Source: a virus
Direction: 5' to 3' (one strand)
Virus record (IMG/VR): IMGVR_UViG_3300024262_000067
Coordinates: 1 to 43,584 of that record
DNA: 43,584 bases
Below the pieces are notes generated by a model that did not search any database, was not told where the DNA came from, and saw nothing but the letters and a program-made list of their open reading frames with translations. Position 1 is the first letter of the stretch. Each line of letters opens with the position of its first letter. The position numbers were made by a program, and so were the translations under genes. Positions 7,601 through 43,011 of this stretch are shown piece by piece.

Positions 7601-8621
7601 ACATAGTCTCAAAGTTCCTCGTTGCCACGTTCTTTGTTTGCATAAACACATTGTCAGGACCTACGAACATAGCAGCAGCGACAAGAGCAAAACTCGTACC
7701 GTTACCGTAGCATTTGTTGTTAATCAGACTACCAGTGGATGCGGCAGAAAAGGACATCAACTTACCAGTCGTATTTACGTTGCAAATCACGTTGTTCTCG
7801 ATGAGCATACTTATGGAAGTAGCCCCATTCGCAATAACATAATCGCTCCATTCGCCAAAAAAGTAGTTGTTAGCGATAACGGACTGGTTTGAAGCGCCTT
7901 CTAAAGCGATAGCAACACTGTCATTTCCACCGTCTATACCGATAAATCTGTTTCCGACAATAACCAGCTCATCGGCAGCAGCCGTTACGGTAATCATTAT
8001 CAGCAGTTCCATATCGTTAGTTGTTTCTCTGAACTGACAACCCGCGATTATTGCGCCGTCACCATTAGCGGTAATATCCAGACATTCGGTTATTCCGTTG
8101 GTGTAAGCGCCCAAGAACCGAAGATTGTAAAGCATCACATCAGCAGCCGAAATCTGGACGGTGGCCGAAGCGGCGGTTATCATAGAAATCGTTGGTTGGT
8201 CCTCACCGTTACCAATACCGACAACAGTGATACCGGCTTTGTCAAAGTTCAGGGCCGCAGCAGAAGCAACGGTTTCTCCGTGGTTCTGTGCGACATAAAT
8301 AACATCACCGGCGTTGTCCGTGCAAAGGTCAACAGCCTCCTGTAATGTATCGACCGCCGTTGCCCAGGTAGTACCTGCGCCATCCGCGGCGGCGCCGCTG
8401 TCGCAATAGAAAATACTGCCCGTGCCGATATTGTCGAACACTCCGCCACTCAGGGCTTCCAGGTCGGATACTTGGTCGTCCAGCGTGCCTATCCTGTCCT
8501 GAAGTAGCCGGGTCAATAAATTAGGATTACTCACGTTCCTGTGGGTAATCGGGTACGGGGCAAAACAGGTGCTGGCTAACAATAGTACCAGAATCGCTAT
8601 TAGTAGTTTCTTACATTTCAT
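4686..8621 (-). CDS. Giant right-handed beta-helix (tailspike/pectate-lyase-fold) protein
   Basis: A 1311-residue protein. Residues 1-20 (MKCKKLLIAILVLLLASTC) look like a signal peptide. The rest holds three related modules starting near residues 68, 567 and 871. Each opens with an F/R-Y-x-D phrase (IFYCDSG, IRYVDSG, VFYVDAS), then a conserved block with GDVIYVA/GDVVYIA and GxGxGEDQP/GMGEGDAKP/GLGVGEARP, then many short Asn/Gly turns typical of parallel beta-helix rungs. Such modules occur in phage spikes and secreted polysaccharide-binding proteins. The C-terminal 130 residues differ and may form a trimerisation or capping domain. The ribosome site GGAG lies within the end of the upstream coiled-coil gene, with an 11-base overlap. 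Enzymatic activity cannot be judged. Confidence 0.75.
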   Translation of the reverse strand: MKCKKLLIAILVLLLASTCFAPYPITHRNVSNPNLLTRLLQDRIGTLDDQVSDLEALSGGVFDNIGTGSIFYCDSGAAADGAGTTWATAVDTLQEAVDLCTDNAGDVIYVAQNHGETVASAAALNFDKAGITVVGIGNGEDQPTISMITAASATVQISAADVMLYNLRFLGAYTNGITECLDITANGDGAIIAGCQFRETTNDMELLIMITVTAAADELVIVGNRFIGIDGGNDSVAIALEGASNQSVIANNYFFGEWSDYVIANGATSISMLIENNVICNVNTTGKLMSFSAASTGSLINNKCYGNGTSFALVAAAMFVGPDNVFMQTKNVATRNFETMFGPYRGDAAGTAGDSVFADFVLIDALLDLILADFTDYQLDHVAGASTTVDADADLTTYIADKSSLSHVMTTGADTSDYRASTMSLQALGADTDTIITAVGTTLPATLTGINNTIASITASSNGYAGTCEVNAGGTTFAVCASLAGFGDDYFNTGWSLMVVLNFDTAGGTPEGEIIDIIDYDTGTGTFELNVAAGAAITTGDGIWIMRKEELNLDDKTILGCAGTIRYVDSGTSGDGSGLTLENAYATFALAEAGCSAGDVVYIADGHDEEIGDIVIDVANVSFIGMGEGDAKPLLTCDAGTDEITLDAAGITVKNVRLQAGADQVVTAFRVEDAGIGCTLENISFIKGEGANEEFVICIDVDAAAAQLTIKDCTYYNSNATTAHASCFIDLTDGTIDQTTITGCTAFGEFANGCIYSDQVLTNLSIIDNVISNTTSTKYAIQLSAAATGVLTNNRLYSDSYLTMLDPGSLKCSGNLGVDAIDQQAIAIPISAETSDVTEVAAGSNLERLEWLQKQTDDIASVLGIDSTADNVFYVDASVAGGSGLGTSWIDAEATLVLAIGDATTNTGAYIFVASNHAENIVGSVAVNKAGISIIGLGVGEARPIFTFDTANDSLAHTVPDVKYKNLIFTPSTQDNTVGISLDASSDGAIFEDCEWRNATTNEFVDMVTLASGTDNVRFTRCRFINNTAAGSNVSAITNTSGTCTGMVIEDCYFYGAFTTAAIEGDQADTNVRIINNTIHNSSTGDYAVKWASNTSFGEFTNNRLYADTVATILDPGGLKCFGNLATDAIDEGGIPIPTSQDTTVVTLDADGSVLERLEFIQQQYSVSKSITTLVDVDVAMNGLFTIAGGPILVTNIVTYIDTNIATEGCLIGYNMNPTTPAADTEFGQTSPALECNGMAAGTVLVWDGVIANDLTATTNGVALHAAVGVGLILPPGSVELDVDHDGTCAGAVTVYMSYEPMAPGVTVVAQ

Positions 8622-8970
8622 TTTCGGTCTCCTTGATACCTAAAAGTTTTCTTGCTTCGAGCAGTTCTTTCGCTTCGGTTTTGGCGTTTGCTTTCGCTTG
8701 CTCTTTTGCCTTTAGCCTGGCCTCCGCCGCTGCAACTATCCGCTTGGCTTCAGCGAACTTGTCTGCTTTGGCCTGGGCTTTGGCCTCTACTTTAGACTGG
8801 GCTTCAGTTTTAGCCTGCTTTTGGGCTCTGGTTGTGGCCTCAACTTCCGCTGCCTGCTCTTTCAATGGAATGAGTGCCAGACTGTTATCATTTACCTCAC
8901 CAACTAATTTGGTGAGATACAAGACAAGCTGTCTGGGCGTATTTACTTCATATGTTGTTGGTGGTTTCAT
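8611..8970 (-). CDS. Ala/Lys/Glu-rich coiled-coil protein
   Basis: A 119-residue protein. About 45 ordinary residues (MKPPTTYEVNTPRQLVLYL and on) are followed by an almost pure Ala-Lys-Glu-Gln helix (residues 45-110) resembling the TolA stalk, certain to be a long helix or coiled coil. It starts after TAGGAGACCAATT. It sits between a head gene and the beta-helix gene and overlaps the latter by 11 bases, so the two are translationally coupled. It could be a spacer or trimeric stalk for the beta-helix protein. Function is inferred only. Confidence 0.65.
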   Translation of the reverse strand: MKPPTTYEVNTPRQLVLYLTKLVGEVNDNSLALIPLKEQAAEVEATTRAQKQAKTEAQSKVEAKAQAKADKFAEAKRIVAAAEARLKAKEQAKANAKTEAKELLEARKLLGIKETENEM

Positions 8971-8987
8971 AATTGGTCTCCTAAAAT

Positions 8988-9428
8988 TTATGCAACTGCT
9001 ACGGCATCGATGTCTTCTTTTTCTACTTCCGTCACACTGAAACGGCGATATTCACCCGCAACCTGCATAGCGTGGCCGGACTCTGCACCTGGAACGTATC
9101 GTTTATAGGGATAGACGACCTTTCTAAGATGATTAACTACGCTTTTCGGCAGCATGTGAACGGCATTGTTGACAAGGTGATAGCTCTTCATCTGCTTTTT
9201 GTCCTCGTCATACTCGAAGCTGAATACCCAATCCACACCGTCTTCGAGGTCCATATTCTTGACGCGGACCGCTATAAGCGGGTCGCCTTCAGCCTGCGCC
9301 TTCTTGGCCAGCCACGCTTGGCATTTCTTGCAGATTACCTTCTGCTCATCTGCTACCGCCGGTCCGTCTTTAGCGCCACAAACAGCTTTCGTTCCATCCG
9401 AAAAATGAATCCCATCCTGCTTTGCCAT
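8988..9428 (-). CDS. Head-module protein with a possible zinc knuckle
   Basis: A 146-residue protein starting MAKQDGIHFSDGTKAVCG, with AAAGGG upstream. Cys17, Cys33, Cys36 and a nearby His could form a zinc knuckle (VCGAK, ICKKCQAW). The remainder is mixed alpha/beta with no motif I recognise. It follows the capsid and decoration genes and a terminator-like hairpin, and precedes the coiled-coil gene. Confidence 0.65.
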   Translation of the reverse strand: MAKQDGIHFSDGTKAVCGAKDGPAVADEQKVICKKCQAWLAKKAQAEGDPLIAVRVKNMDLEDGVDWVFSFEYDEDKKQMKSYHLVNNAVHMLPKSVVNHLRKVVYPYKRYVPGAESGHAMQVAGEYRRFSVTEVEKEDIDAVAVA

Positions 9429-9440
9429 AACAATTCCCTT

Positions 9441-9495
9441 TCAAAATAGAAAACGGCCGTATAGAGAAGGTATAGGCTTCCTATACAAGCCGTTT
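9441..9495 (-). terminator. Compound hairpin, probable terminator after the capsid genes
   Basis: Outer stem AAACGGC/GCCGTTT (9451-9457 with 9489-9495) encloses a perfect 7-bp hairpin GTATAGG-CTT-CCTATAC (9470-9486). On the minus strand the outer 3' arm continues into TTTTCTATTTTG. It lies 29 bases after the stop of the 216-residue virion gene. Confidence 0.65.
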
Positions 9496-9523
9496 CCTGG
9501 TTCCTAACTATTCAGTTTTTAAC

Positions 9524-10174
9524 TTACACGGTGCCGAGGTCGGTGTACTGGTCAGCCTCCCACGCTGTTATAAACAGAGGTATACTGGCTGCGGCGAGAG
9601 TTAAACCTAATGTGATACCAAGACCCTTGTTCGCAACGATGTTCTCTTCGCGGCAGGTCCAGACGTTGTTCGCTGAATCTGTAACAGTTCCGCCTACTGT
9701 TGTAGGCCAGGTGGGTTGTACTGCACAAGCACCTCCTGAAGTGGTACATTCGTAAACATAGCCGTTGGCCGTGTTCGGACGTACCATAGTACCTATTACC
9801 GTTGCGCTTCGGGCCGTTGGCGTTACGGTATTGGCTATCTGGTAGGCATAATTGAAACAGTCTTTCTTGAGGTCGCCCGTTCCTGGTATCGGAGATTCGA
9901 CCAAAACTTGCGGCGTCTTGGCGCCATTATAAGATGATATGCCCGTGTTAGCGTCCGCTTCACTGAAAGTACCACCTGTATCTATGACACCATATTCCTG
10001 GTCGGCTGCATCAACAACAGCATCGTCTTCGTATTCTTTGCCCCACCATTTCAAAAAAGAAGCGCTGGTAATCGTTCCGTGCTGTTTGTAAATCTCTACA
10101 TAAGTGGGGATAAAACCAAGTTCAAGGTTGATAGCGACACCTTGACCAATAAGTGTTCTTTGAACCATTTTCAT
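9524..10174 (-). CDS. Probable capsid-associated (decoration) protein
   Basis: A 216-residue protein encoded immediately after the major capsid gene, with a strong site (AAGGAG, seven bases before ATG). Beta-rich and Thr/Ala/Gly-rich, with a central Cys-containing segment (YVYECTTSGGACAVQ, NVWTCREEN) and a hydrophobic C-terminal stretch (LGLTLAAASIPLFITAW). The central segment resembles small carbohydrate-binding-like virion modules. Position and composition suggest a head decoration or stabilising protein, not a proven family. Confidence 0.6.
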   Translation of the reverse strand: MKMVQRTLIGQGVAINLELGFIPTYVEIYKQHGTITSASFLKWWGKEYEDDAVVDAADQEYGVIDTGGTFSEADANTGISSYNGAKTPQVLVESPIPGTGDLKKDCFNYAYQIANTVTPTARSATVIGTMVRPNTANGYVYECTTSGGACAVQPTWPTTVGGTVTDSANNVWTCREENIVANKGLGITLGLTLAAASIPLFITAWEADQYTDLGTV

Positions 10175-10216
10175 TGTTATACTCCTTAATTTATGCCGTT
10201 TATTACGGCGTTATTT

Positions 10217-11182
10217 TTAGGCCGCCGTTACCTTAAAAACGATAATGTTGTTGTCATTGAGGATTCGGCACACATTCATAAACTTCCAGGCGGCTGTTTG
10301 TCTCTGGTCCATAGGGTCGGCTGAGCCTGCTGAACCTTTGGTGTGGATGATTAACTTGGCGTTTGCCTTCTCTAAAGAAACCACACCGTATCCGTGCCTT
10401 GCGAGTATCGGGATGTAGTAGTAAGTTCCCGCTGTTGATGGGAACGCCTCAGTAGCTGAACCTTCCTTGTGGGCAACTGAACTGGCTAAGAAGCGGACCT
10501 CGTTGACGGAACCTCGCTCGGACTCAAGTACCGTGCCCTGGTTGGCATATTCTGAGGTGTTCATAAAGCCGGTTACAGCCTTCAGGTCTTTATTTAGGGC
10601 CGTGTTCATAATGGCCCAATAAGAAGGAAGAACGGGCGATGTACCTTGACCAACCGATGCCCTAATCAATGGTGTTACCGGAGAGGAATCGTTGTTCTGA
10701 AGAGTATTTGCTATGGTGTCGATGTCGGTCTCATTCAAAGCTGTCGTTGTGGGGTCGCCGTTTGAGGCGGTCAAGCTCGAAGCCGTGCTCACTATGACGT
10801 TTCTTATCAGTTCATCCTCAGTGCGGTACATCTGGTCGTTAAGCTCACTGACACCTACATTGAGAATCTTGTTCTCGCAGGTAAACTGCAATACGTCAGT
10901 GATATGGATGAAGTCGCCATACTGAGCGACTGTGGCGCGAATGTCCTGTTTTGTAAGGTATTTTCCCGGAGGGGTGATACCTTCGAGAATCTCGGTAGTT
11001 GCGGTAGCAATCTGCGCGAACCGGCGCCATACGATAATCTTGCCTACACCGGCTGGAAGGGTTTCACGGTCGGCAAAAAGACCGTGTACGAGTTTTGGTT
11101 TGTTCCGGACGAGCAATAGCTTATTAAAGTAAGCGTTTACCGCCGGAGTAATAATAGAGGTTGTTGTAAAATTATCAGCCAT
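10217..11182 (-). CDS. Major capsid protein, N4-gp56 type
   Basis: A 321-residue protein beginning MADNFTTTSIITPAVNAY. It has the recognised layout of the N4-gp56 capsid family: an N-terminal region with FADRETLPAGVGKIIVWRRF, then ITPPGKYLTKQDIRATV, then the conserved QYGDFIHITDVLQF, and a C-terminal half with ATEAFPSTAGTYYYIPILARHGYG and a conserved IIHTKGSAG stretch. It forms the HK97-fold shell. Upstream scaffold and portal genes and a downstream decoration gene agree. The start has TAGGAG at good spacing. Confidence 0.88.
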   Translation of the reverse strand: MADNFTTTSIITPAVNAYFNKLLLVRNKPKLVHGLFADRETLPAGVGKIIVWRRFAQIATATTEILEGITPPGKYLTKQDIRATVAQYGDFIHITDVLQFTCENKILNVGVSELNDQMYRTEDELIRNVIVSTASSLTASNGDPTTTALNETDIDTIANTLQNNDSSPVTPLIRASVGQGTSPVLPSYWAIMNTALNKDLKAVTGFMNTSEYANQGTVLESERGSVNEVRFLASSVAHKEGSATEAFPSTAGTYYYIPILARHGYGVVSLEKANAKLIIHTKGSAGSADPMDQRQTAAWKFMNVCRILNDNNIIVFKVTAA

Positions 11183-31705: not shown

Positions 31706-34700
31706 TCATTCCACCATTCTTTCCTTTAATCTTTCTCTTTTTAGACCTTTACCGATAACTGGATGTCTCTCCAACGGGCCTACTGTTATCTTTTTCTCCC
31801 GGTTCCAGTATGCCTCTAAATAGTTTTCCACATTAGCCTGTGTTAGACCAAAATTTCTGAGATATTTAACAGTACGTTGGATTTCCTCTTCTGTTAAATT
31901 CACTTTTGTCAGGAAGTGTGCTTTGTTTTGCAATAGCCTATCAACGTCAATAAGTAGTTTAGGTTTCCATTCTTTACGAAGTTCATTGGGAACGAACTTG
32001 CTCTCAAGAATGTCATTTACGGTTCTGTTATACCGCCCAATCGCAGTCCTTGGATTTTTGATAGTTCCAAGGTACTGGTATAATTCTTCCTGCTGGCCTT
32101 TGAGCGAGAAAATTCTGCTTATGATTTCTTGTTCTCGTTTATCCTTCTCGGTTTTTGTCGGTCTAACACCTAACAAAGACTCCATTGCTGCTATTGTCGT
32201 ATCTATTTCCCTACGTCGCGATTGTTTGAAAACACTAACCGAAATCGGCTCAAGTTTCTTAACTTCGTGTACGGCAAGTTTCATCGCCCGGCGCAAAAAC
32301 GGGTCGGTGATTTCGGTAATTCGGTCGCCCTTCCAATCATATACGGCTCGACCCATTGAAATCAGAGCCAAATCAACAATCATATCTGCTGTCGGAGCTT
32401 TCATACCACCTATTCTTTTAACCGCATTTTTGACAGCCACATCAGGTCTGCCCTTTAATACATTGAAAGCGACTTGCCAATAGTCCTTATCATAAGTCAT
32501 AAGGTCTATCATTATCCGCCGATCCTTATCATCCCTCTTTCCAGTATCAATTTTGAAAAGGTCGCGAACATCCTCTGTTGTTTCGGGCTTTTTAGGCGGT
32601 TCGCCTGTCATAATCATAGTCCCTACTGTCGCCAACATGCCCGTAAGAATCAACGAATTGACAATGTTCGACCGTGAACGGCTTGCTCTAAATCCTTCCT
32701 TGCCCCCCCATTGCGTAACGGCCTTAATCATTGTTCGATAATTACCTTCGGCATAGCCTGGTGATAGAAAATAGAATCTCAATGCCGTTGTTACCGTACC
32801 ACTTCTGCCAAAAAGCCTTTCGTTCATCATGCCGTAAAAGTTCTGACCTTCTTTAATGATTTCTTGGAGTTCTGAATCAGTTAATTCGCGGCCCAATTTC
32901 TTTGCTTGTTCATCATACCACATTTGAGTCTTTGCATATTTGACCTTCGGGATGTAACTATTGAACATCCAATTAACAAAACCTGTCGGGATTCTCAAAG
33001 GCAAGGCCCCTACCCTGATTGCCTTCTGTTCACTGGCGGTAAATTTTTTGATGAATTTATTGAATGCCCTGCGACTTTCAGACTCGACACTGTATCTGTG
33101 TCCGCCGCCATTTCGGAGATAGCGTTTATAAAACGGTGTTATGAATATTGGGTCATTCTTACGAAAGCCGGATGTAATTCCTTGAATCGCTGTGCCTTTT
33201 TTCACACCGAAAGGAATGCGCTCGCCAGGCTTTCTGTAAAATTTTGCAATTTTATAAAATCCCAAGTAACCACTATCGGCAACTGATTGCTTTGCAACAC
33301 TCAGAAGGTGAAAAGCGCTACCAATGAATTTGACTGTCCGCAGGAAATTGTTTACATCGCGCAGGGTTTTGAGAATAGGTATTTTGGTGAGTTTATTTGT
33401 GGCGATGAGATTATTGATTAACTTCGCCAAATCCGGCTCCACTCTCAATCCGCTAAAGGCCGGGTCTTGCACTTTGTCCCATTCGACAGGAGCATCAATG
33501 AAATTATCTATGAATTTGCTTTCTCCCGTTCGCATTAGTTCGTCTTTGAGCCAGTTCATACCTTCAAGGTGGGCTATTGCGACATATTCGGATTTTAAGT
33601 TCCGCACGGGATTGGGATCTTTTATTTCAAGGCCGTAGGATTTTGCATCTGCATAGGTAGGCAACTTCTTTTCTTTTGTGAATCGCTTTGTCGTGCGCCA
33701 GTAATCAAGAAACTTATCAACCTTCTTGGAGTCCTTATAGATACCGTAAAAGTAATCCGCAACCCTATTGATATCGTCACCAACAACAGACTGGAGATAC
33801 TTGTAGTTGAAATCGGCTATGTGCTGGATTGCCTTAATCAATCGCGGACTGCGCAGCTCTTTTGGTAATTTGTTAATTGCATCCCGCTTTATGAGCTGGG
33901 CATTCACCGAAACTGGATTACCTCTGGAGAGCATCAAATTGTCTAAATCTTTATCAGGAAAGCGGTCTAAGTATTTTTCCAGTTCAGCAATGACTTTATC
34001 TTTTTTCGGCAGCTCGGTCTGCTCAAATTCGACCCGTGCCACATCTGTGGCGTGAATGCCTTTTATGACCGCAGCAGCGGCTTCCTTGCCTAATTTTCTC
34101 TCAACGGCCTTGCTCGGCTCCAGAACCCTCATAAAGGTCTTGTGAGCTTCAAGAATAGGAGTTACATCTGCAAAGCCCGGTTTGCCCTTCGGCTTCTCGA
34201 TGGGCTTGTATTCGTATTGCTCCGGCACGGATTTTTTAAGTGTCGGCAACGCTGATGGATTGTAGCCACGTGCTCTCAAGTCCTTATCAATAACATCAAG
34301 GCGAGGCTGATATTCTTTTCTTAATTGCTCAACATTGAATTGTTCACTGTATTCTGCCGCTTCACCTAAAAGCCGTTGTCGTTCATCAAGCAATAAATCT
34401 GTAAAATACTTCCGCTCGGCAGGAGTTTCTTTGGCTATCTGGATAGGAGTTTTCTTTTTGACTATTGGCTTCTGTACCTTGGCCTTTTCCCCCTTCGCCA
34501 GAGCCTCTTGCGCCCACTTCTCGGATTTGTATTCTTCGAGGACGGAAAGGGGGACGGGCTTGCCTTGTGTGATAGCCGCTTTAACAAACTGTTCGTGTAA
34601 ATCAAAAACATCACCGGATTTTTTACTCACAAGATATTCGGTATGTTTCATTTCCCACGGCTCTTTCGCCGCAGGTTTGGCTGCCTCTGCTGCGGGGATT

Positions 34701-36934
34701 TCAGGTAAGATTAGATTGCCAACTTTAATCTTGCCTCGTGCCACCCCTCCTCGTTTGGCAGAATATCTCTTAACCGAAATGACCTCTTGTGGTGACATTT
34801 TATGCAATTCTGCCAAAGTTAAATCCTGTCCATCACCATATAATCTTATTGGAGCTTCGACAATCTTGCCTGCCTTCGTCTTATATGTTCTCGGCTCTTC
34901 AAATAATGGCTTCTCTGCTGGTCCGGGCTTGGCTGCCTCTGCTGCGGGGATTTCAGGTAAGATTAGATTGCCAACTTTAATCTTGCCTCGTGCCACCCCT
35001 CCTCGTTTGGCAGAATATCTCTTAACCGAAATGACCTCTTGTGGTGACATTTTATGCAATTCTGCCAAAGTTAAATCCTGTCCATCACCATATAATCTTA
35101 TTGGAGCTTCGACAATCTTGCCTGCCTTCGTCTTATATGTTCTCGGCTCTTCAAATAATGGCTTCTCTGCTGGTCCGGGCTTGGCTGCCTCTGCTGCGGG
35201 GGGCTTGGCCTCAGGGGCTACCTTAACCGCTTTACGACTATACATTCTTGCTGCTAATCCATCTATTTCAGTTGAAGACATTCCTACTACACCAGTGCTA
35301 TCTTGTGCAACTACAGCAAATGGTATATCAATTCCTAACTTTTTAGCAGCAGCAGCGCGATGAGAACCTTCAAAAATATGAAGGCCGCCATCTGGCATAG
35401 GCATTACTGCAATTGGTCTTTCTAATTCTGTTCTATTGCCTTCTCTATATTCCTTAATCATTAAATCAACAGTCTTAACATCATCGACCGTAGTGAACTC
35501 ATCAACAATTAGAGGAAGCTGTATATCCTTAAATATGTTTGGTGAAATTTGACCAGCATCCCCTTTTTTGAATTTAGGGGCTATTACGGAGGGCTTGGCC
35601 TCTGTAATCGCCTCTGAGGGTACTTTGACACCCTTTTTAGGAGTTACGGCCACAGGCGGGGCAACAGCAGCCTCCAACGGGGTAGTTACGGGCTTCGGTA
35701 AATGCTCTGCTATCGCCTCAAGGCCAGGCTTGGCTGGGGTCGGTGCTGTTGGCGGCTGATATGTTGGTGTAATAATAGGTGGCTTAGTCGGTACTTTTCC
35801 GACTCCGACCGTTGGTTCCGGTGGGGGTTTGGCTGCCGCTGCAATAGGAAGCTGTTTCGGCACTTTATCTACCATTCGCAACCAGACATTTTGAGCAATC
35901 TTATTCACTTTATCGGCGTGTCGAGCAGCCCAAGCATCGTGAGTCATCTTACCGCCGCGAACTAAAGCGGATTCTCGCAGGGCTTGACCGAACTTGAATT
36001 TTTCCGCCGGTTTCAAATGCTTCAAAAACGGCAATTCCTTTGCCAGCTTACTAACGGTTTTGTAATCAATACCTTTACCTACAATGTTAGCAACTCCGGC
36101 AAGTCCGGCGGAAAGACCGCCCATACTGATTATGGATTTGCCAACGTGGGCTGTAATTTCTGTCGGCGTCAATTTTTTGCCCGACATAGCAATATCGCGC
36201 GTAGCTTCCGCTCCACCAATTACCATCAATGGCGGAGCCACCCTCATAAAACGGTCAATGAACTGCAAGCCGACTGGAGCTTTCCAGCCCAAACCCTTTA
36301 GAATACCACTCGCCAAACCATACTTGATTTGAAAGCCGGTTAAATGACCTACCGCTTCCGGCCATTTTTTCTGCCACGGCAGTTTCTCTACTCTTTCAGC
36401 TATATCGGGGGCAAGTTTGCGCCTTACCCCTGGCACAAAAGATTCGGCCATTGCCATATAAGGACGAACGAAAGGAAGTCTTACCCCTGGCTCTTCCATT
36501 CGTGGCGGTTCTACTGGGTCGTGAGGTTGTGGGACGGAATATTCGGGCGGCGGAGATGGTTCCGGCGCCCCTTGTAGCGGAAGTTCGGTTATGCCTACAG
36601 TGGGTTTAGCGGCACCGCGTATTTCCTCAAAGCTGGGGACTGTCTTCCTTGAATAATATCGGCCATCTTTACCTTTTACAATTTCACTACCGCGCCTTTT
36701 TTCTTCATCAATAGTTTTTTGTATGCTTTCGTGCTTTATGCCTTTTAATAACATCCCACTTCGAGGGTCAAGGCTTCCCCAATGTCCTGTTTCGTCAGGT
36801 TTTCCGCCAAATTCTTTCGCAGTTTCATAATCATAACCTGAACCCTCTGGGTCAAATTGAGTTACGCCGCGAAGCTCTTCAAAGCTCGGCACTTTCTTTT
36901 TCTGTCGGATTTCTTCAAAGGTTGCTACTGCCAT
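31706..36934 (-). CDS. Giant polyvalent internal virion protein with ParB-like and LPD38-like regions
   Basis: 1742 residues. N-terminal linear repeats around VPSFEELRG/VPSFEEIRG and TFEEIRQ, with a GHWGSLDPRSGMLLKG segment. About residues 470-560 form a ParB/Srx-like domain (LPLIVDEFTTVDDVKTVDLM, HIFEGSHRAAAAKKLGI). Residues 583-750 contain two identical 84-residue repeats. The C-terminal half (LRTVKFIGSAFHLLSVAKQS, ALRFYFLSPGYAEGNYR, then a membrane-like LILTGMLATVGTMIMTG) matches the LPD38 type of polyvalent phage proteins. Such proteins are packed in the virion and injected. It is the largest gene and sits with two other virion genes; no clear lytic transglycosylase motif is visible. Confidence 0.7.
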   Translation of the reverse strand: MAVATFEEIRQKKKVPSFEELRGVTQFDPEGSGYDYETAKEFGGKPDETGHWGSLDPRSGMLLKGIKHESIQKTIDEEKRRGSEIVKGKDGRYYSRKTVPSFEEIRGAAKPTVGITELPLQGAPEPSPPPEYSVPQPHDPVEPPRMEEPGVRLPFVRPYMAMAESFVPGVRRKLAPDIAERVEKLPWQKKWPEAVGHLTGFQIKYGLASGILKGLGWKAPVGLQFIDRFMRVAPPLMVIGGAEATRDIAMSGKKLTPTEITAHVGKSIISMGGLSAGLAGVANIVGKGIDYKTVSKLAKELPFLKHLKPAEKFKFGQALRESALVRGGKMTHDAWAARHADKVNKIAQNVWLRMVDKVPKQLPIAAAAKPPPEPTVGVGKVPTKPPIITPTYQPPTAPTPAKPGLEAIAEHLPKPVTTPLEAAVAPPVAVTPKKGVKVPSEAITEAKPSVIAPKFKKGDAGQISPNIFKDIQLPLIVDEFTTVDDVKTVDLMIKEYREGNRTELERPIAVMPMPDGGLHIFEGSHRAAAAKKLGIDIPFAVVAQDSTGVVGMSSTEIDGLAARMYSRKAVKVAPEAKPPAAEAAKPGPAEKPLFEEPRTYKTKAGKIVEAPIRLYGDGQDLTLAELHKMSPQEVISVKRYSAKRGGVARGKIKVGNLILPEIPAAEAAKPGPAEKPLFEEPRTYKTKAGKIVEAPIRLYGDGQDLTLAELHKMSPQEVISVKRYSAKRGGVARGKIKVGNLILPEIPAAEAAKPAAKEPWEMKHTEYLVSKKSGDVFDLHEQFVKAAITQGKPVPLSVLEEYKSEKWAQEALAKGEKAKVQKPIVKKKTPIQIAKETPAERKYFTDLLLDERQRLLGEAAEYSEQFNVEQLRKEYQPRLDVIDKDLRARGYNPSALPTLKKSVPEQYEYKPIEKPKGKPGFADVTPILEAHKTFMRVLEPSKAVERKLGKEAAAAVIKGIHATDVARVEFEQTELPKKDKVIAELEKYLDRFPDKDLDNLMLSRGNPVSVNAQLIKRDAINKLPKELRSPRLIKAIQHIADFNYKYLQSVVGDDINRVADYFYGIYKDSKKVDKFLDYWRTTKRFTKEKKLPTYADAKSYGLEIKDPNPVRNLKSEYVAIAHLEGMNWLKDELMRTGESKFIDNFIDAPVEWDKVQDPAFSGLRVEPDLAKLINNLIATNKLTKIPILKTLRDVNNFLRTVKFIGSAFHLLSVAKQSVADSGYLGFYKIAKFYRKPGERIPFGVKKGTAIQGITSGFRKNDPIFITPFYKRYLRNGGGHRYSVESESRRAFNKFIKKFTASEQKAIRVGALPLRIPTGFVNWMFNSYIPKVKYAKTQMWYDEQAKKLGRELTDSELQEIIKEGQNFYGMMNERLFGRSGTVTTALRFYFLSPGYAEGNYRTMIKAVTQWGGKEGFRASRSRSNIVNSLILTGMLATVGTMIMTGEPPKKPETTEDVRDLFKIDTGKRDDKDRRIMIDLMTYDKDYWQVAFNVLKGRPDVAVKNAVKRIGGMKAPTADMIVDLALISMGRAVYDWKGDRITEITDPFLRRAMKLAVHEVKKLEPISVSVFKQSRRREIDTTIAAMESLLGVRPTKTEKDKREQEIISRIFSLKGQQEELYQYLGTIKNPRTAIGRYNRTVNDILESKFVPNELRKEWKPKLLIDVDRLLQNKAHFLTKVNLTEEEIQRTVKYLRNFGLTQANVENYLEAYWNREKKITVGPLERHPVIGKGLKRERLKERMVE
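34681..35184. repeat. Perfect 2 x 252-bp tandem duplication
   Basis: Units 34681-34932 and 34933-35184 read as identical, with about 17 bases of a third start following. Each is 84 codons, in frame, encoding the block from RTYKTKAGKIVEAPIRLYGD through ISVKRYSAKRGGVARGKIK. Confidence 0.95.
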
Positions 36935-37719
36935 CTACTTACCCACTTATTGTAATAGGCTTCTGCCTCTGTCTCATCTTCTATGCTTTGAACTGTTTTG
37001 AGAAATTCTTCCCGACTTTGTGGCTCAGTTGCAGGCGTTACTGACGGAGTTGATTTCCCTTCCCTCTTTTGGAACATAGATAACTTAGTAATCTCATTAT
37101 TTGCCCAGTTCACCAATTTTGGTTGTCGTGGCTCCTTATTCCCACCCGCAACTCCGAAATAAGGGCCTTCACCCCTTTGTTTCAAATTTGATAGAAAGTC
37201 CAATTTTTCGACATCGGTCATACCTTCATAGGTTCTGCGAGAACTTTTACGTGGTTCCATACCAGCCGAAATTAACTTTTCCATTCGCGCAAATTCCGCA
37301 GCTTTCTTTTTGTCATATCCCAGTTCCATATATTCTTGAACACTCTGTTGTATTTTGCTCGGCTTTCCTTGTGCGCCCAATTTGCTCACTCCTAAAGCCT
37401 GCTGCATAGGAATACCTGATTGAAGTGCCTTTTGAAATATCTGCATAGGGGTCAACTGTGCGCCTTGAATCATTCCCGTTTCAGTTGGTTGGCCCCCCAG
37501 CCAGCCTTCTTTCAAAGCACCAAAACCGCCAGGAGTAAAGACACCTTGGCCCCCGGCAGACGGTGTTTGGGTCGGCATTAGACTTTCAGCAAATTTCGTC
37601 ATTTTTCGCTGCTCGCTTTTTTCTTGCCTTTTTTTACCCATCATCTCTGCCATTTGAAGCATATAAAATTTCAGTTCAGCGTTTGGGTCTCTATATTCCG
37701 GTGCAAAATGAACAGCCAT
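36925..37719 (-). CDS. Probable internal/ejection protein
   Basis: 264 residues (MAVHFAPEYRDPNAELKFY), site AAGGAGAAGTTAAA. Helical N-terminus with basic segments (KKRQEKSEQRKMTKFAESLM), Gly/Gln-rich middle (AGGQGVFTPGGFGALKEGWL) and a helical C-terminus (TEAEAYYNKWVSRW). Its stop overlaps the start of the 1742-residue protein by 10 bases. Low-complexity internal proteins in this position are usual in P22/T7-like ejection modules. No domain recognised. Confidence 0.6.
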   Translation of the reverse strand: MAVHFAPEYRDPNAELKFYMLQMAEMMGKKRQEKSEQRKMTKFAESLMPTQTPSAGGQGVFTPGGFGALKEGWLGGQPTETGMIQGAQLTPMQIFQKALQSGIPMQQALGVSKLGAQGKPSKIQQSVQEYMELGYDKKKAAEFARMEKLISAGMEPRKSSRRTYEGMTDVEKLDFLSNLKQRGEGPYFGVAGGNKEPRQPKLVNWANNEITKLSMFQKREGKSTPSVTPATEPQSREEFLKTVQSIEDETEAEAYYNKWVSRWQ

Positions 37720-37720
37720 T

Positions 37721-38914
37721 TTAACTTCTCCTTGATTCTACTTTTTGAGTCAACTCGTTTATAGCGCCGACCAGAAGGCCGATAACGGCATCGAGTCTGA
37801 TGAGTTTTACTCCGTGATGTTCGATAACGGCTTCTGGTAGGACTTTTTCCAGCTCTTGTGCAATAATCCCTGCGCTCCTTTTGTTCTCATTTAGGAAATT
37901 GTAAGTCATTCCCTCAAGCTGATTGACCTTTTCAAGCGCGTTTTCTATTCGGGCAAAATTCTCTTTTAGTCTGGCATCACAGAAGGCTGTTGCGGCCCCC
38001 CACGCATACGGGGCTAACTGGCTGGCTATACTCGGCTCTTGTGGTGACATAACAGTATCAAAAGCTGATATACCAAGGGCAGTGGACAAGTATTGTTGTA
38101 ACCACGGATTCATATAGGGCTGTGCTTCCCCAAATTTTTCTTGTTCAGCACCCAAGAATTGCTGACCTATACCTCGTTGTTCGGCGCCCATACCTGCCAT
38201 TGTTCCTAAACCCTGACCAGCCATTCCTAAGCCCTGACCTGCAAGCTGGCCTGGAATCCCAGCCATCTGGCCAAGCATCCCACCACCCTGTACTTGTCTA
38301 CCTAATTGGGACTGTTGACCGCTGTAAAGAAGATTGGCTAATTGACCGGATAGACTTGTTGCAAGGTCCTCACCGCTTCTTGCCAGTTCCCGCTGCATAG
38401 GCCCGCTATCGGCAGTACCGGCGCTCCGGACGCCCTTTTCCATAATGGCAGGCATAATGTCTTCCCGCCACGTCTCTAAGGCCGGTCGTTTCATAGAGGT
38501 TTCCCAGAACTCCGTTGCCGATGTTGGGTCAAAGGGTCGTGTCGCACCCTGCAAAGCTTGTGCGCCCGCTCCCAGAAGACCCTGCCCTTGCGAAGGGTCG
38601 AATTGGCCAAACCCCTGTAATCCAGCTTGTACTCCAGGTGCAAGACCACCACCCATACCATAAGCGCTTTCCTGTAATGGTGACATCCCCGCCACACGCT
38701 CGCCACCGTAGGGAGTTATACCTTGACCAACCTGTGGTGTAAGTTGGCCGGTAATAGCTTCGAGTAATTCCATTTGTCCTGGGGTAAGTCTTTCAATACT
38801 TGAAGCCTCCCCGCCACCAGTCTCTGTTGCGCCTTTATATCTTCTACTACTTAATGGGCTTATTGATAGCTGGTGTACTATCCCGCTTCGTACTATTTTT
38901 ATTGTTTTTTCCAT
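37721..38914 (-). CDS. Virion protein with C-terminal S74 intramolecular-chaperone domain
   Basis: 397 residues. N-terminal part is Gly/Gln/Ala-rich (QGLLGAGAQALQGATRPFDP) with ELARSGEDLATSL in the middle, a style seen in podoviral internal or fibre-base proteins. The last 90 residues are the S74 endosialidase-chaperone fold: CDARLKENFARIENALEKV, LEGMTYNFLNENKRSAGIIA, QELEKVLPEAV. Here the residue aligned to the self-cleavage Ser is Cys (about 312), with Lys five residues on. The 5' end overlaps the preceding gene by 68 bases. Cleavage and trimer-assembly are inferred from the family. Confidence 0.72.
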   Translation of the reverse strand: MEKTIKIVRSGIVHQLSISPLSSRRYKGATETGGGEASSIERLTPGQMELLEAITGQLTPQVGQGITPYGGERVAGMSPLQESAYGMGGGLAPGVQAGLQGFGQFDPSQGQGLLGAGAQALQGATRPFDPTSATEFWETSMKRPALETWREDIMPAIMEKGVRSAGTADSGPMQRELARSGEDLATSLSGQLANLLYSGQQSQLGRQVQGGGMLGQMAGIPGQLAGQGLGMAGQGLGTMAGMGAEQRGIGQQFLGAEQEKFGEAQPYMNPWLQQYLSTALGISAFDTVMSPQEPSIASQLAPYAWGAATAFCDARLKENFARIENALEKVNQLEGMTYNFLNENKRSAGIIAQELEKVLPEAVIEHHGVKLIRLDAVIGLLVGAINELTQKVESRRS

Positions 38915-39365
38915 TAGGTTCCCTATTGTCTTTCCACTCCATTAAAGTTCTTTTTGAACGTTTTAATCCAATTGCCTTATGCTCAGTTGAGATATCTGAG
39001 TGAAGGGTTAAAAAATGTATCTCTTTTTTTAGTTCAGGTCCCGTTTTTAAGTTGACCAGAAAATCCCCTACTTTGAGAAGGATCCCATTAGTCGGAGATT
39101 GATATTCTTTGTCTAATGATAAAACTCTGATAAAAATTATGGCCTCGATGATATCTATGGCGGCCCAAAGTACTCCTTTTATCTTATAATCCATATCCAC
39201 CAGAACATACAATAAAGTCAACGGACTACTTGCGAACATTGCCCCAAAGTTGTAAATTCGGTCAATCTCAACCGAATCAAGCTCCTCGACCTGCTCAAAC
39301 AAATAACGAGGTATATGGCGGAAATCGAAGGTGCGAACAAATTCTAATTCGTTAATATTACGCAA
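38847..39365 (-). CDS. Virion-module protein of unknown function
   Basis: 172 residues from a TTG start with AAGGAG seven bases upstream (MRNINELEFVRTFDFRHIP); an in-frame ATG 14 codons earlier lacks such a site. Helical with a hydrophobic stretch (MFASSPLTLLYVLVDMDYKI, GVLWAAIDIIEAIIFIRVL) and a basic, Lys/Asn-rich C-terminus. It overlaps the ATP-grasp stop by 8 bases and the next gene by 68. Could be membrane-associated; no family recognised. Confidence 0.6.
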   Translation of the reverse strand: MRNINELEFVRTFDFRHIPRYLFEQVEELDSVEIDRIYNFGAMFASSPLTLLYVLVDMDYKIKGVLWAAIDIIEAIIFIRVLSLDKEYQSPTNGILLKVGDFLVNLKTGPELKKEIHFLTLHSDISTEHKAIGLKRSKRTLMEWKDNREPNGKNNKNSTKRDSTPAINKPIK

Positions 39366-40668
39366 CCTTAAGCTCCTTAATTCTCTTAGCGTGCTCTTTG
39401 AAAGCATCTGGGCGATATTGTAGATAAGAACATATTTTCAATTTATCAATAGCGCCACTGACCTTGCCCCAGGCCGCTTCGAGATTCTCGTCATGGGCGC
39501 TGACTACTCCTAAGATTCCATCAGCACCAGCACATTTGAGCTTACCGGCATCACTATAAATATCTTGTGCCCAGAAAAACGGCGTTCTCTCAAGGCGGTT
39601 CATTATAGAAACGTCCTTAGCGAAATCGTGGCGCAAGCGTGGATTGGCATAGGGATAAGGTGGAATGCTTATACGCTGTGAACACGCATAGCCATTGTTA
39701 AAATCAGCCTTGAAATCCTTTAGAAAGAAATCCGATAATTTGCCTTTAATGAGGGTTAGCAGACAGTAAAGTGCATCGTATCCGAACCTCGGCGTCCATT
39801 CTAAAAAGTACGGAGTAGAACCTTTTACGATACAGTTGGCATCACACGGACCAATGTAACCTTTCGATTTCAAGTAGGCCGCCATCTTTTTAAGCGGTTC
39901 AATCAATAGACCAGAGTCTTTACCCATCCAGATTGTGTTACTCTGTGAGCCGATCGCCGGTCCAAGATTGCCGGCCATAAGCCTTTTACTCTCCAATGTA
40001 TGATTGAAATGGACAGGCCCCTGCTCACCAATCCATACTTCGCTTGAGACTTCTACACCCTCGATTTTTTTCTGCAAGACATATTCACATTTATCACTTA
40101 TCCTGTGGAGCCATTCATCGAGCATCTTGGTTAGAATCTCATTAGGAAATTTCTCAACATAGGTTAAATCAAGGTCTTGATTATTTTCCGGCTTGAAAAC
40201 CCATAAATCGTTGCGGTCTTTGAGGAACTTCGCACCGTCTTTTAAGTTCGAAAACTCGTGATGTTCAGGAATGGCAAAGCCTACCTTCTTGGCAAGGTCG
40301 ATTCCCTTGTGGCGGTCAAGTTCCAGTTCCTCAGTCAGGGTCGAGACGCCGATAACTTTATGGTCTTTGCGGAGCGTATCTGCAACTGGCCCGAAAACCG
40401 ATGGCAGGGTTGATTTGAGTCCGAAGGTCTTTAATAAGATAACATCTTGCTTATTTCGCTCGTTAGGGCGTGTGATGTCAAATATCACAAGGTCAGTTTT
40501 CTTGAGTTGTTTTTTCAAATCCTTGACGGATAACTTTGGCAAAATGCCATCGTAGTTGTGGCGATACTGCGGGTGATGTATGTAAATTCCGGCGTCAACG
40601 CCCTCGCGCCTTAATCGCCAGACAATCGGTAATGATTCGCCGCTATTTGACATAAATATCACATCCAC
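39358..40668 (-). CDS. ATP-grasp ligase, PurD/GARS-like
   Basis: 436 residues from a GTG start overlapping the preceding stop (TAGTG), with GAGGAAGC upstream. N-terminal Rossmann-like MDVIFMSNSGESLPIVWRLR matches the GARS N-domain. The ATP-grasp part has DLWVFKPENNQDLDL (phosphate clamp), CEYVLQKKIEGVEVSSEVW and GYIGPCDANCIVKG, and PYFLEWTPRFGYDA, the counterpart of the LEfNxRfGDPE magnesium site of PurD. It forms an amide or peptide-type bond using ATP; the acceptor is unknown. Unusually placed inside the virion operon, coupled on both sides. Confidence 0.75.
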   Translation of the reverse strand: MDVIFMSNSGESLPIVWRLRREGVDAGIYIHHPQYRHNYDGILPKLSVKDLKKQLKKTDLVIFDITRPNERNKQDVILLKTFGLKSTLPSVFGPVADTLRKDHKVIGVSTLTEELELDRHKGIDLAKKVGFAIPEHHEFSNLKDGAKFLKDRNDLWVFKPENNQDLDLTYVEKFPNEILTKMLDEWLHRISDKCEYVLQKKIEGVEVSSEVWIGEQGPVHFNHTLESKRLMAGNLGPAIGSQSNTIWMGKDSGLLIEPLKKMAAYLKSKGYIGPCDANCIVKGSTPYFLEWTPRFGYDALYCLLTLIKGKLSDFFLKDFKADFNNGYACSQRISIPPYPYANPRLRHDFAKDVSIMNRLERTPFFWAQDIYSDAGKLKCAGADGILGVVSAHDENLEAAWGKVSGAIDKLKICSYLQYRPDAFKEHAKRIKELKVA

Positions 40669-41153
40669 TATGCTTCCTCTGTCCAAGTCCCATATTTGGC
40701 TATCGTGTACCAATCGCCATCCGAATCGCTGATAATTTGCAGACATTCGCCGATAGCATTTGCTGATTTATACTTATCAGCCGTCTGGCCGCTGTCGTCT
40801 CTGATTGTCGCCGTACCCGGGTCAACCCTTAACTCCTGAGCGGCCTGTACCGCAAAAGTGAATTTGATACCGGCCTTTGTCACGGTCGGTAAAGTCAAAG
40901 TTACCGCCCCTGTGGCTCCTAAGTTTGAATACACACTGCCAGTTTCGTGTTCGGTTAAGGTATCATCCGAAGTATGGACCTCAACGGTATTGGTCATAAG
41001 CCAGTTTATCCGGCTGGCTATCTCCTTATATATTTTCTCTACCCAGATGACCAGTTTGCGCAGATATTTCGGCAGCTCCTCTAAGGACGGGGGCAAAGAG
41101 CCTTTCTCCGGTTTGAAAATAATAAACCTGTTTTCAATCTTTAATTTTTCCAT
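40668..41153 (-). CDS. Virion-module protein with fibre-like beta domain
   Basis: 161 residues (MEKLKIENRFIIFKPEKGS), starting one base after the preceding stop, hence coupled; a longer in-frame version reads back into the hub gene and is unlikely. N-terminal helices (SLEELPKYLRKLVIWVEKIY) then a beta domain GATGAVTLTLPTVTKAGIKF, ending in YTIAKYGTWTEEA, as in small phage fibre/base proteins. It lies between the hub and the ATP-grasp enzyme. Confidence 0.6.
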   Translation of the reverse strand: MEKLKIENRFIIFKPEKGSLPPSLEELPKYLRKLVIWVEKIYKEIASRINWLMTNTVEVHTSDDTLTEHETGSVYSNLGATGAVTLTLPTVTKAGIKFTFAVQAAQELRVDPGTATIRDDSGQTADKYKSANAIGECLQIISDSDGDWYTIAKYGTWTEEA

Positions 41154-41154
41154 C

Positions 41155-43011
41155 TTATTTAATCTGTCCCGCCCGTCGAGAATGCAGCACAAGAGCGTGT
41201 ATCCTGGGTCTGGCGCCAACGGTGTCGTGGTTAATTTCGATACTGTGAAAATCCGCAACGGTGCCGCATTTTGCGGTTCGCCAAACCGTCTTTCGGCTTA
41301 TATCATCATCACTACAATCAATGGTCTTGGTCTGATAAGAGCTTGACCTGCTGTTTTTGAAAAATTGAACATCAAATGTAGTGTTGACACGGTCTACGAG
41401 GAAGTCGATTTTTTTTAACCTCGCCTGCTTATTTTCTTTGAAATAGGGGTTCCATCTTCCGCCCTTCGCCTTCATTTCAATAGCTTCGCCGTCATCGGAA
41501 CCTCCGTCATTCATTTGATAAATCTTACCATTACGGCAACCCATAAGACTTGTGGGGTATCCAGCCTGGAGTTCCTTGTCATCTAAAGAGTAATCCAAAT
41601 CGTCTAAACTGATTCCGACCATATCATCGGTGCTTGGCGTCTCTATTAAAGACGAATAGCCCATAACGTGAATAGGTAAGTTAAAGATAGCAAAATTGTT
41701 CTCTTCATAATTAAGAGCCAAAGCCTTGTCTGGCTTGTCTGCGCTCGCCGAGGCATACGAAAAAAGGGCCTGCCGGAGTTCCTCCATAACCAGTGAAAAA
41801 CAGTATTTGACCGCCGTTTGCTTGAAGGTAAGCATAAGGTCGGGAATCTTTTCATCAATGCCTGTAACCTCACGCCCGTCACACGTCAGAAACCTTGTCG
41901 GTCCCACCCCTATTATCTCATCTGAAAAAGCCGCCAAAGACATAGTTGCGTAGCAGCCCTCGACCGAATCTACCTTTTCCCACCTAAAAGGAGTGTCAGG
42001 GTCGCCGGTATAAACAATTTTCATTATACCCTGCTGGAACCAAACGATAAGTTCCCCACCGATAAAGTCCGCAGCCATAATCCAGTCGTCTCGCGGAGCA
42101 TCTGAATAGTTCGAGTCTTTAGCAGAGGTAGAGTTTATTTCAAACCATCGTAATCGCTGGTTATAGGCAATGCCCCTCTCAGTGGTTCGTAATAGAATTA
42201 ACCGCCCTTCCATGTGAAAGATTAAAAGACAGGTATTTACATCGTTATCCGGCCCGCCTTCTACATCAAGGTCGATATTGAACTTGGTTACATAAGAGCC
42301 GTCATACTTACGAAGCTGGTCCTGATTATTAGTAAAGTATCCCACTCCCTTCCAGTTCTCGAACCAGAAGAAATCGGCATCAACGCCGGTAAACTCCCCG
42401 TAAGAGCAGCTTTCCGTCAGGGCGGCTACCGTTGAGCCGTAGACGGTGATATTCTCACCATCGGCCTCAAAATCACCTTCTGTGGCACTCGACAGGATAA
42501 GCGTCCCAGAGGCATCAGAGTCCGCCCAGGCCCCTTTATCGAGCACCACAGCTACTATAATGGCCGTATCGCCGCTTGTGGCGCCTGTGATAGTATCTCC
42601 TTCCAATATCTCAGTCTGGCCGGACTTAAATCTGACGTTAAGGGTCGTAAGGTCATCGCATAGCCCTGTGGCGATGTTGTACTTATTGACCCTGCGGGTA
42701 TCCATAAAAAGGAGCCTCTCAAGGACCCCTTTGTAGAAGTTATAAATACCCATTATTGGATAGCCCGGCTTGGTCTCAACTCTGCCGATACCGAACTTGC
42801 CTGCTCCGAATTTACCTGACCCAAAAGGCGCAGGGTTTACGTGGACGAAATCTGCAAACTGCGTATAACCGTGACGCTTCTCTAAAACACCCCTTTGTAG
42901 AAAGCTATCCTCAAGCTTCTCGAAGGCGTCCTGTGGAAGTAACCAGGGTTCCTTGTCCAAGCGTAACCCCGAACTCATATCGTAAATAAGATGGGTTTCG
43001 TAGCTACTCAT
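41155..43011 (-). CDS. P22-gp10-like tail hub / DNA-stabilisation protein
   Basis: 618 residues (MSSYETHLIYDMSSGLRLD). An all-beta protein of repeated strands with a Gly-rich loop near residue 60 (FGSGKFGAGKFGIGR), FFWFENWKGVGYFTNN and GRLILLRTTERGIAY blocks, consistent with the beta-propeller-like hub proteins that plug the portal after packaging. Length and position beside other tail genes fit P22 gp10. The homology is by pattern and size; a search would be needed for proof. The start overlaps the upstream stop (TAATGA). Confidence 0.6.
   Translation of the reverse strand: MSSYETHLIYDMSSGLRLDKEPWLLPQDAFEKLEDSFLQRGVLEKRHGYTQFADFVHVNPAPFGSGKFGAGKFGIGRVETKPGYPIMGIYNFYKGVLERLLFMDTRRVNKYNIATGLCDDLTTLNVRFKSGQTEILEGDTITGATSGDTAIIVAVVLDKGAWADSDASGTLILSSATEGDFEADGENITVYGSTVAALTESCSYGEFTGVDADFFWFENWKGVGYFTNNQDQLRKYDGSYVTKFNIDLDVEGGPDNDVNTCLLIFHMEGRLILLRTTERGIAYNQRLRWFEINSTSAKDSNYSDAPRDDWIMAADFIGGELIVWFQQGIMKIVYTGDPDTPFRWEKVDSVEGCYATMSLAAFSDEIIGVGPTRFLTCDGREVTGIDEKIPDLMLTFKQTAVKYCFSLVMEELRQALFSYASASADKPDKALALNYEENNFAIFNLPIHVMGYSSLIETPSTDDMVGISLDDLDYSLDDKELQAGYPTSLMGCRNGKIYQMNDGGSDDGEAIEMKAKGGRWNPYFKENKQARLKKIDFLVDRVNTTFDVQFFKNSRSSSYQTKTIDCSDDDISRKTVWRTAKCGTVADFHSIEINHDTVGARPRIHALVLHSRRAGQIK

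Follow-up and report, generated by a model that had tools for sequence, protein, structure and literature searches.

A predicted PurD-derived ATP-grasp ligase with altered substrate-site residues, encoded among virion genes of uncultured phages

Phage ligases and the locus analysed

Among the closest described systems are the sets of amidoligase, ATP-grasp and GATase genes of LUZ24- and phiEco32-like phages (Iyer 2009, cited in PMC10580990), which in UFV-P2 (ATP-grasp of 291 aa, amidoligase and GATase) are located in the early region (PMC3890496). Another group, the R2K ATP-grasp family of phages, consists of predicted protein-modifying ligases (PMC4431377, PMC7824862). In the excerpts considered, neither the amidoligase sets (PMC3890496, PMC10580990) nor R2K (PMC4431377) are described as PurD-derived or as linked to a virion operon. 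In addition, a global ocean survey found GART to be virus-enriched and interpreted it as purine synthesis; the same work also reports creatine-pathway and carbamoyl-phosphate synthase genes as virus-enriched (PMC11360552).

The ligase described here resembles the LUZ24- and phiEco32-like sets, as they appear in the excerpts, in being a phage-borne ATP-dependent amide-forming enzyme (in our case a predicted one). However, whereas the excerpted account of UFV-P2 gives a 291-aa ATP-grasp protein with its partners in the early region, here we have a full PurD-type protein in the late region, and no such partners were found. With R2K, as excerpted, it shares the condition of a phage ATP-grasp ligase, but R2K is described as a different ATP-grasp clade and not as a derivative of PurD.

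The window, by which we mean the whole stretch of DNA analysed, is a 43.6-kb virus record (43,584 nucleotides; IMG/VR IMGVR_UViG_3300024262_000067) whose main genes, called mechanically, all share one strand. It encodes a terminase-like protein, a P22-type portal, an SU10-type adaptor, a capsid, a tail stabilisation-like protein, an S74 protein and a 1742-aa protein. No family of the early-type amidoligase/GATase set appeared in the survey of the window. The features around the ligase are the following:

41155..43011, minus strand: tail stabilisation-like virion structural protein (phrog_3287; PHROGs E=7.5e-13)
40668..41258, minus strand: putative fibre-like protein upstream of the ligase
39358..40668, minus strand: predicted PurD-derived ATP-grasp ligase, 436 aa, GTG start (ORF, profile, AlphaFold2 fold, residue alignment)
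38847..39365, minus strand: divergent GNAT-fold acyltransferase-like protein, TTG start at 39365 (AlphaFold2 fold, weak Pfam)
37721..38914, minus strand: protein in the position of the first ejection protein; Peptidase_S74 chaperone domain at its C-terminus (clusters with same-position genes of other phages)
36925..37719, minus strand: second putative ejection/internal virion protein (assigned by position only)
31706..36934, minus strand: putative large internal virion (ejection) protein, 1742 aa (cluster common to related phages at the last ejection-protein position)

A first-pass annotation of this DNA had proposed a PurD/GARS-like ATP-grasp enzyme, translationally coupled on both sides to structural genes, and gave no strand. 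The gene is on the minus strand, from a GTG at 40668-40666 to a TAA at 39360-39358. There is an alternative in-frame ATG at 40746 that would give a longer form, and we have preferred the GTG because relatives begin at or near this position. The coupling was confirmed on both sides: the TAG of the fibre-like gene (40670-40668) and the GTG have one base in common (TAGTG), and the TTG of the GNAT-like gene (39365-39363) overlaps the 3' end of the ligase by 8 nt, an overlap that is identical in loci L002 and L009. A purine-rich stretch lies ahead of both the GTG and the TTG. The placement among virion genes stands as well, the neighbours in the late region being tail stabilisation-like, fibre-like and ejection-like. 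The fibre-like product has an N-terminal helical segment common to the upstream genes of L008 and L009, a variable C-terminal part, and no match in Pfam or PHROGs. As for the Peptidase_S74 intramolecular chaperone domain at the ejection-protein position (37721-38914), it is typical of tail fibres, and one would not expect it in an internal virion protein.

Kinship with PurD and residues of the substrate site

Searched alone, the window protein gave PF01071 at E=0.26 in Pfam, no match in the PDB by phmmer and no match to TIGR00877 at E<=1. The best family member matched TIGR00877 at E=1.1e-12, and the copy in L061 scored 25 bits, below the curated cut-off of 288 bits. A profile of the family retrieved the PDB PurD structure 2yw2 at E=1.6e-5 when made from five rows and at E=1.1e-17 when made from ten, with an alignment of positions 54-431 to 42-423 of 2yw2, that is, over the ATP-grasp and C-terminal domains. 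The homology of the N domain to PurD was seen by fold, in an AlphaFold2 model from 29 rows (pLDDT 88.3, pTM 0.88, poor in loop 230-239 only). The top 15 PDB matches of this model were all PurD/GARS (E 5e-23 to 5e-18, TM about 0.6-0.7), followed among the matches listed by biotin carboxylase, PylC and PurK, and there were 575 matches at E<=0.001. Profile and fold agree with the proposed PurD/GARS type and, judging by the model, the window protein is a member of the ATP-grasp superfamily.

We compared the residues of 60 non-redundant phage homologues with those of five PurD references. E116, K159, G204, E226, K228, G236, G240, E290, R294, G296, R419 and D421 were invariant in 60/60 phage rows; the pattern used to collect many of the loci demanded YxGxxDxN or xLE[FW][TS]xR, and in those rows the invariance of D276, N278, E290, T292 and R294 was partly imposed by it, the first two clades (nine close contigs and the 49 of the second clade) having been gathered with other patterns. 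E206 is not universal in the family. Like PurD (TIGR00877; PF01071 and PF02843), the phage family has a near full-length fold including the C-terminal domain, and it keeps in 60/60 rows the ATP-binding Lys (K159), a second Lys (K228), the metal Glu (E290), the carboxylate Arg (R294) and the RxD of the terminal YRxD motif. The suggested metal site, PYFLEWTPRFG, is indeed present at residues 286-296 and holds E290 and R294.

Unlike PurD, the family has lost several characteristic elements. The R, E and H of the N-domain GxGGREH loop are not kept, the GGMGAYSP loop is missing from the 60 homologues, and the R-[LF]-G-D-P-E signature (RFGDPE) is replaced by sequences such as RFGYDA or RPGWPL, with its Asp and Glu in 0/60; the Glu that is the glycine-amine ligand of PurD (E295) has become A, L, T, S or C, and is never E. 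Further replacements against all five references are universal in the phage rows: K to R at 119, E to Q at 199, D to E at 226, Y to D at 276, G to N at 278 and N to T or S at 292. The glycine contacts of Aquifex PurD, from a simulation on the 2YW2 structure, are Asp212, Arg287 and Glu292 (PMC8880213). They correspond to E226, R294 and A299 of the window protein, so that the Asp has changed to Glu, the Arg is kept and the Glu is lost (60/60). With R294 retained, and with Asp to Glu being a conservative exchange at the glycine site, the carboxylate substrate could still be glycine or a different small amino acid. Far from being fully conserved, the PurD substrate residues are changed in the 60 phage rows, while genuine PurD copies in other records retain every PurD motif.

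Family, cellular relatives and gene neighbourhood

At least 558 viral contigs in IMG/VR encode the family by profile search, of which 80 were kept. The window gene has nine close relatives among viral contigs, and a second clade of 49 contigs was gathered with GenBank MW202796, from Manatee Spring, as its seed. At the thresholds used this is the only GenBank phage record with the family, and its complete family member (MW202796.1, 42140-43468) is without an annotated gene. Other GenBank phage matches had lower similarity, several being annotated purD or having true PurD motifs (motifs checked in five), and these matches look like bacterial sequence inside phage collections. In a tree of the 60 phage rows and the five PurD references the phage family is apart from PurD with support 100/100 and contains several deep clades. 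The dN/dS values of four close pairs were 0.037-0.087, and therefore the ligase gene is under strong purifying selection. The carriers are uncultured phages, mostly short-tailed. The phage ligase forms a deep branch of the PurD superfamily that is widespread, almost without cultured members and, within the open-licence PMC literature, undescribed.

Homologues that carry most of these substitutions were also found on plasmids of Halarchaeum, Roseomonas and Sphingomonas, and in two of the bacterial genomes sampled. The proteins of the Halarchaeum and Sphingomonas plasmids, named "Phosphoribosylglycinamide synthetase C domain-containing protein", share with the phage family E226, K228, T292, R294 and the lost PurD glutamate, but they belong to cellular replicons and have no adjoining virion genes; alphaproteobacterial copies differ from the phage family by N at 276 and M at 199. 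Each of these cellular relatives stands as a single gene, in the vicinity of methyltransferase, type III polyketide synthase, SET-domain or sugar-metabolism genes. Such neighbours are unrelated genes and are not conserved, so that no pathway is defined by them, and since there are no virion genes among them the chemistry of the ligase is not tied to virions. In one case (L148, G134:C45) the bacterial ligase copy, on the reverse strand at 9145-10452, adjoins a methyltransferase-like gene (8509-9132) that by eye resembles guanidinoacetate methyltransferase, with marginal Pfam support. In another, a Sphingomonas daechungensis plasmid (L153, 7001-8301), the homologue is annotated as two adjacent pieces beside a SET-domain gene and may be split or frameshifted.

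Deeply diverged phage relatives show the same linkage to virion genes. A virion gene cluster, assigned by PHROGs matches and sequence inspection, was found within three genes of the ligase in 105 of 126 loci, an approximate count in which the other 21 are unassigned and should not be taken as non-virion. The arrangement varies. In the clade of the window the order is stabilisation, fibre-like, ATP-grasp, GNAT and S74/ejection proteins; in a lake clade, stabilisation, GNAT, ejection proteins, ATP-grasp, fibre and lysozyme; in a third clade, ATP-grasp, fibre-like and stabilisation; and in a fourth, TerL, (lysozyme), ATP-grasp and portal-like. Other loci have the ATP-grasp gene beside adaptor or capsid genes. 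The neighbours are mostly on the same strand, and the start of the next gene often falls at most about 10 nt from the stop. From this position and coupling the ligase would be made late.

The gene directly downstream of the ligase in most loci of the window clade encodes a GNAT-like protein. Weak GNAT matches in Pfam were obtained for 4/9 members, and a profile search of the PDB gave no match. Its AlphaFold2 model (pLDDT 74) had only GNAT structures among the Foldseek PDB matches listed (E about 1e-4, TM about 0.5), and on this model the protein is a divergent GNAT, predicted to be acyltransferase-like. Of the 77 loci that comprise at least 12 genes, 32 had a recognised GNAT, and no convincing profile match linked the two main GNAT clusters; on these grounds we have rejected the GNAT as an obligate partner of the ligase. 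The GNATs may simply be part of the ejection-gene module. In several lake-clade loci (L047, L048, L057, L134 and others) the slot after the tail stabilisation gene, in this clade usually that of a GNAT, is occupied instead by a cupin-like or a cupin-SET protein (apparently a fusion to a SET-domain methyltransferase), both names coming from reading the sequences. In sequence terms, this slot looks like a swapped enzyme position within the virion operon.

Predicted chemistry and possible targets

Residues and model together make it quite probable that the protein is an active PurD-derived ATP-grasp carboxylate-amine ligase with a substrate other than that of PurD. In the standard ATP-grasp mechanism Mg-ATP is bound, a carboxylate is converted into an acyl phosphate, and the attack of an amine produces an amide. 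The phage ligase would bind Mg-ATP and phosphorylate its carboxylate to the acyl phosphate, the invariant R294 would take over from the arginine with which PurD binds the carboxylate of glycine, and an amine would attack the acyl phosphate with predicted formation of an amide. The ligase probably links two molecules through an amide, and it is unlikely to serve purine synthesis. One could still think of an authentic PurD (GAR synthetase) with which the phage raises purine synthesis, encoded by an auxiliary metabolic gene that sits in the late region by chance; the homology to PurD is full-length, C-terminal domain included, and phosphoribosylamine-glycine ligase is virus-enriched in the ocean survey (PMC11360552). 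However, RFGDPE, the REH loop, the GGMGAYSP loop and the glycine-amine Glu are absent from 60/60 phage sequences, the motifs are all retained in true PurD copies of other records, the phage family is a deep separate branch, and no other purine-pathway family was found among the window ORFs scanned. We reject purine synthesis on the substrate-site residues, and consider a genuine PurD very improbable. DNA hypermodification was also set aside, as the Pfam matches in the window show no enzymes for it, only a methylase and a dATP/dGTP pyrophosphohydrolase.

With regard to what the ligase acts upon, it appears about as likely to modify a virion protein by attachment as to synthesise a small molecule. 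A possibility that we hold tentatively is that a virion protein of the same operon (fibre, ejection or head) receives an amino acid or some different carboxylate during assembly, the fibre or ejection proteins encoded next to the ligase being the foremost candidates. It is consistent with the persistent, tightly coupled late-operon location across diverged phages, with a fibre-like gene as immediate neighbour in three different arrangements, and with other modification-type enzymes (GNAT, cupin, cupin-SET) filling a slot in the same operon. On the other hand, the adjoining virion gene varies by clade (TerL/portal, fibre, ejection, capsid), the GNAT is not a constant partner, and the cellular homologues sit away from virion genes; it is mainly for this last reason that we do not commit ourselves to a virion-protein target. 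Metabolic genes in the late region are known in other phages, e.g., psbA in cyanophages, and therefore location alone is no proof of such a target either. It is rather doubtful that uncultured phages, as one large family, devote this PurD-derived ligase to the covalent coupling of an amino acid, or of a different carboxylate, to one of their own virion proteins during assembly.

The late-operon place might instead reflect timing only, the product being an amino-acid conjugate, a cofactor or a modified metabolite needed late in infection. The PurD ancestry is one of small-molecule chemistry, late metabolic genes as in cyanophages offer a precedent, and the cellular relatives are single genes close to methyltransferase, polyketide synthase, SET-domain and sugar-metabolism genes. 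Against this, those neighbours define no pathway and the phages have no constant partner metabolic gene, so that this proposal, too, is only tentatively held. A target in the host envelope, a host defence component or something else is somewhat unlikely. Within this range, an enzyme that is packaged with the ejection proteins and acts on a component of the host directly upon injection, or one that modifies the host envelope, seems improbable: the ligase adjoins putative ejection-protein genes in the window and lake clades, and PMC10580990 cites phage amidoligases as proposed to modify the host wall against superinfection, but other clades put the ligase beside terminase/portal or fibre genes.

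Annotation pipelines may label members of this PurD-derived branch as genes of purine synthesis, in which case the numbers given for viral "GART/PurD" auxiliary metabolic genes (e.g., the enrichment in PMC11360552) may partly reflect a different chemistry. For the phages that carry it, the ligase is a specific and testable candidate for enzymatic modification of the virion or for production of a late infection-specific metabolite.
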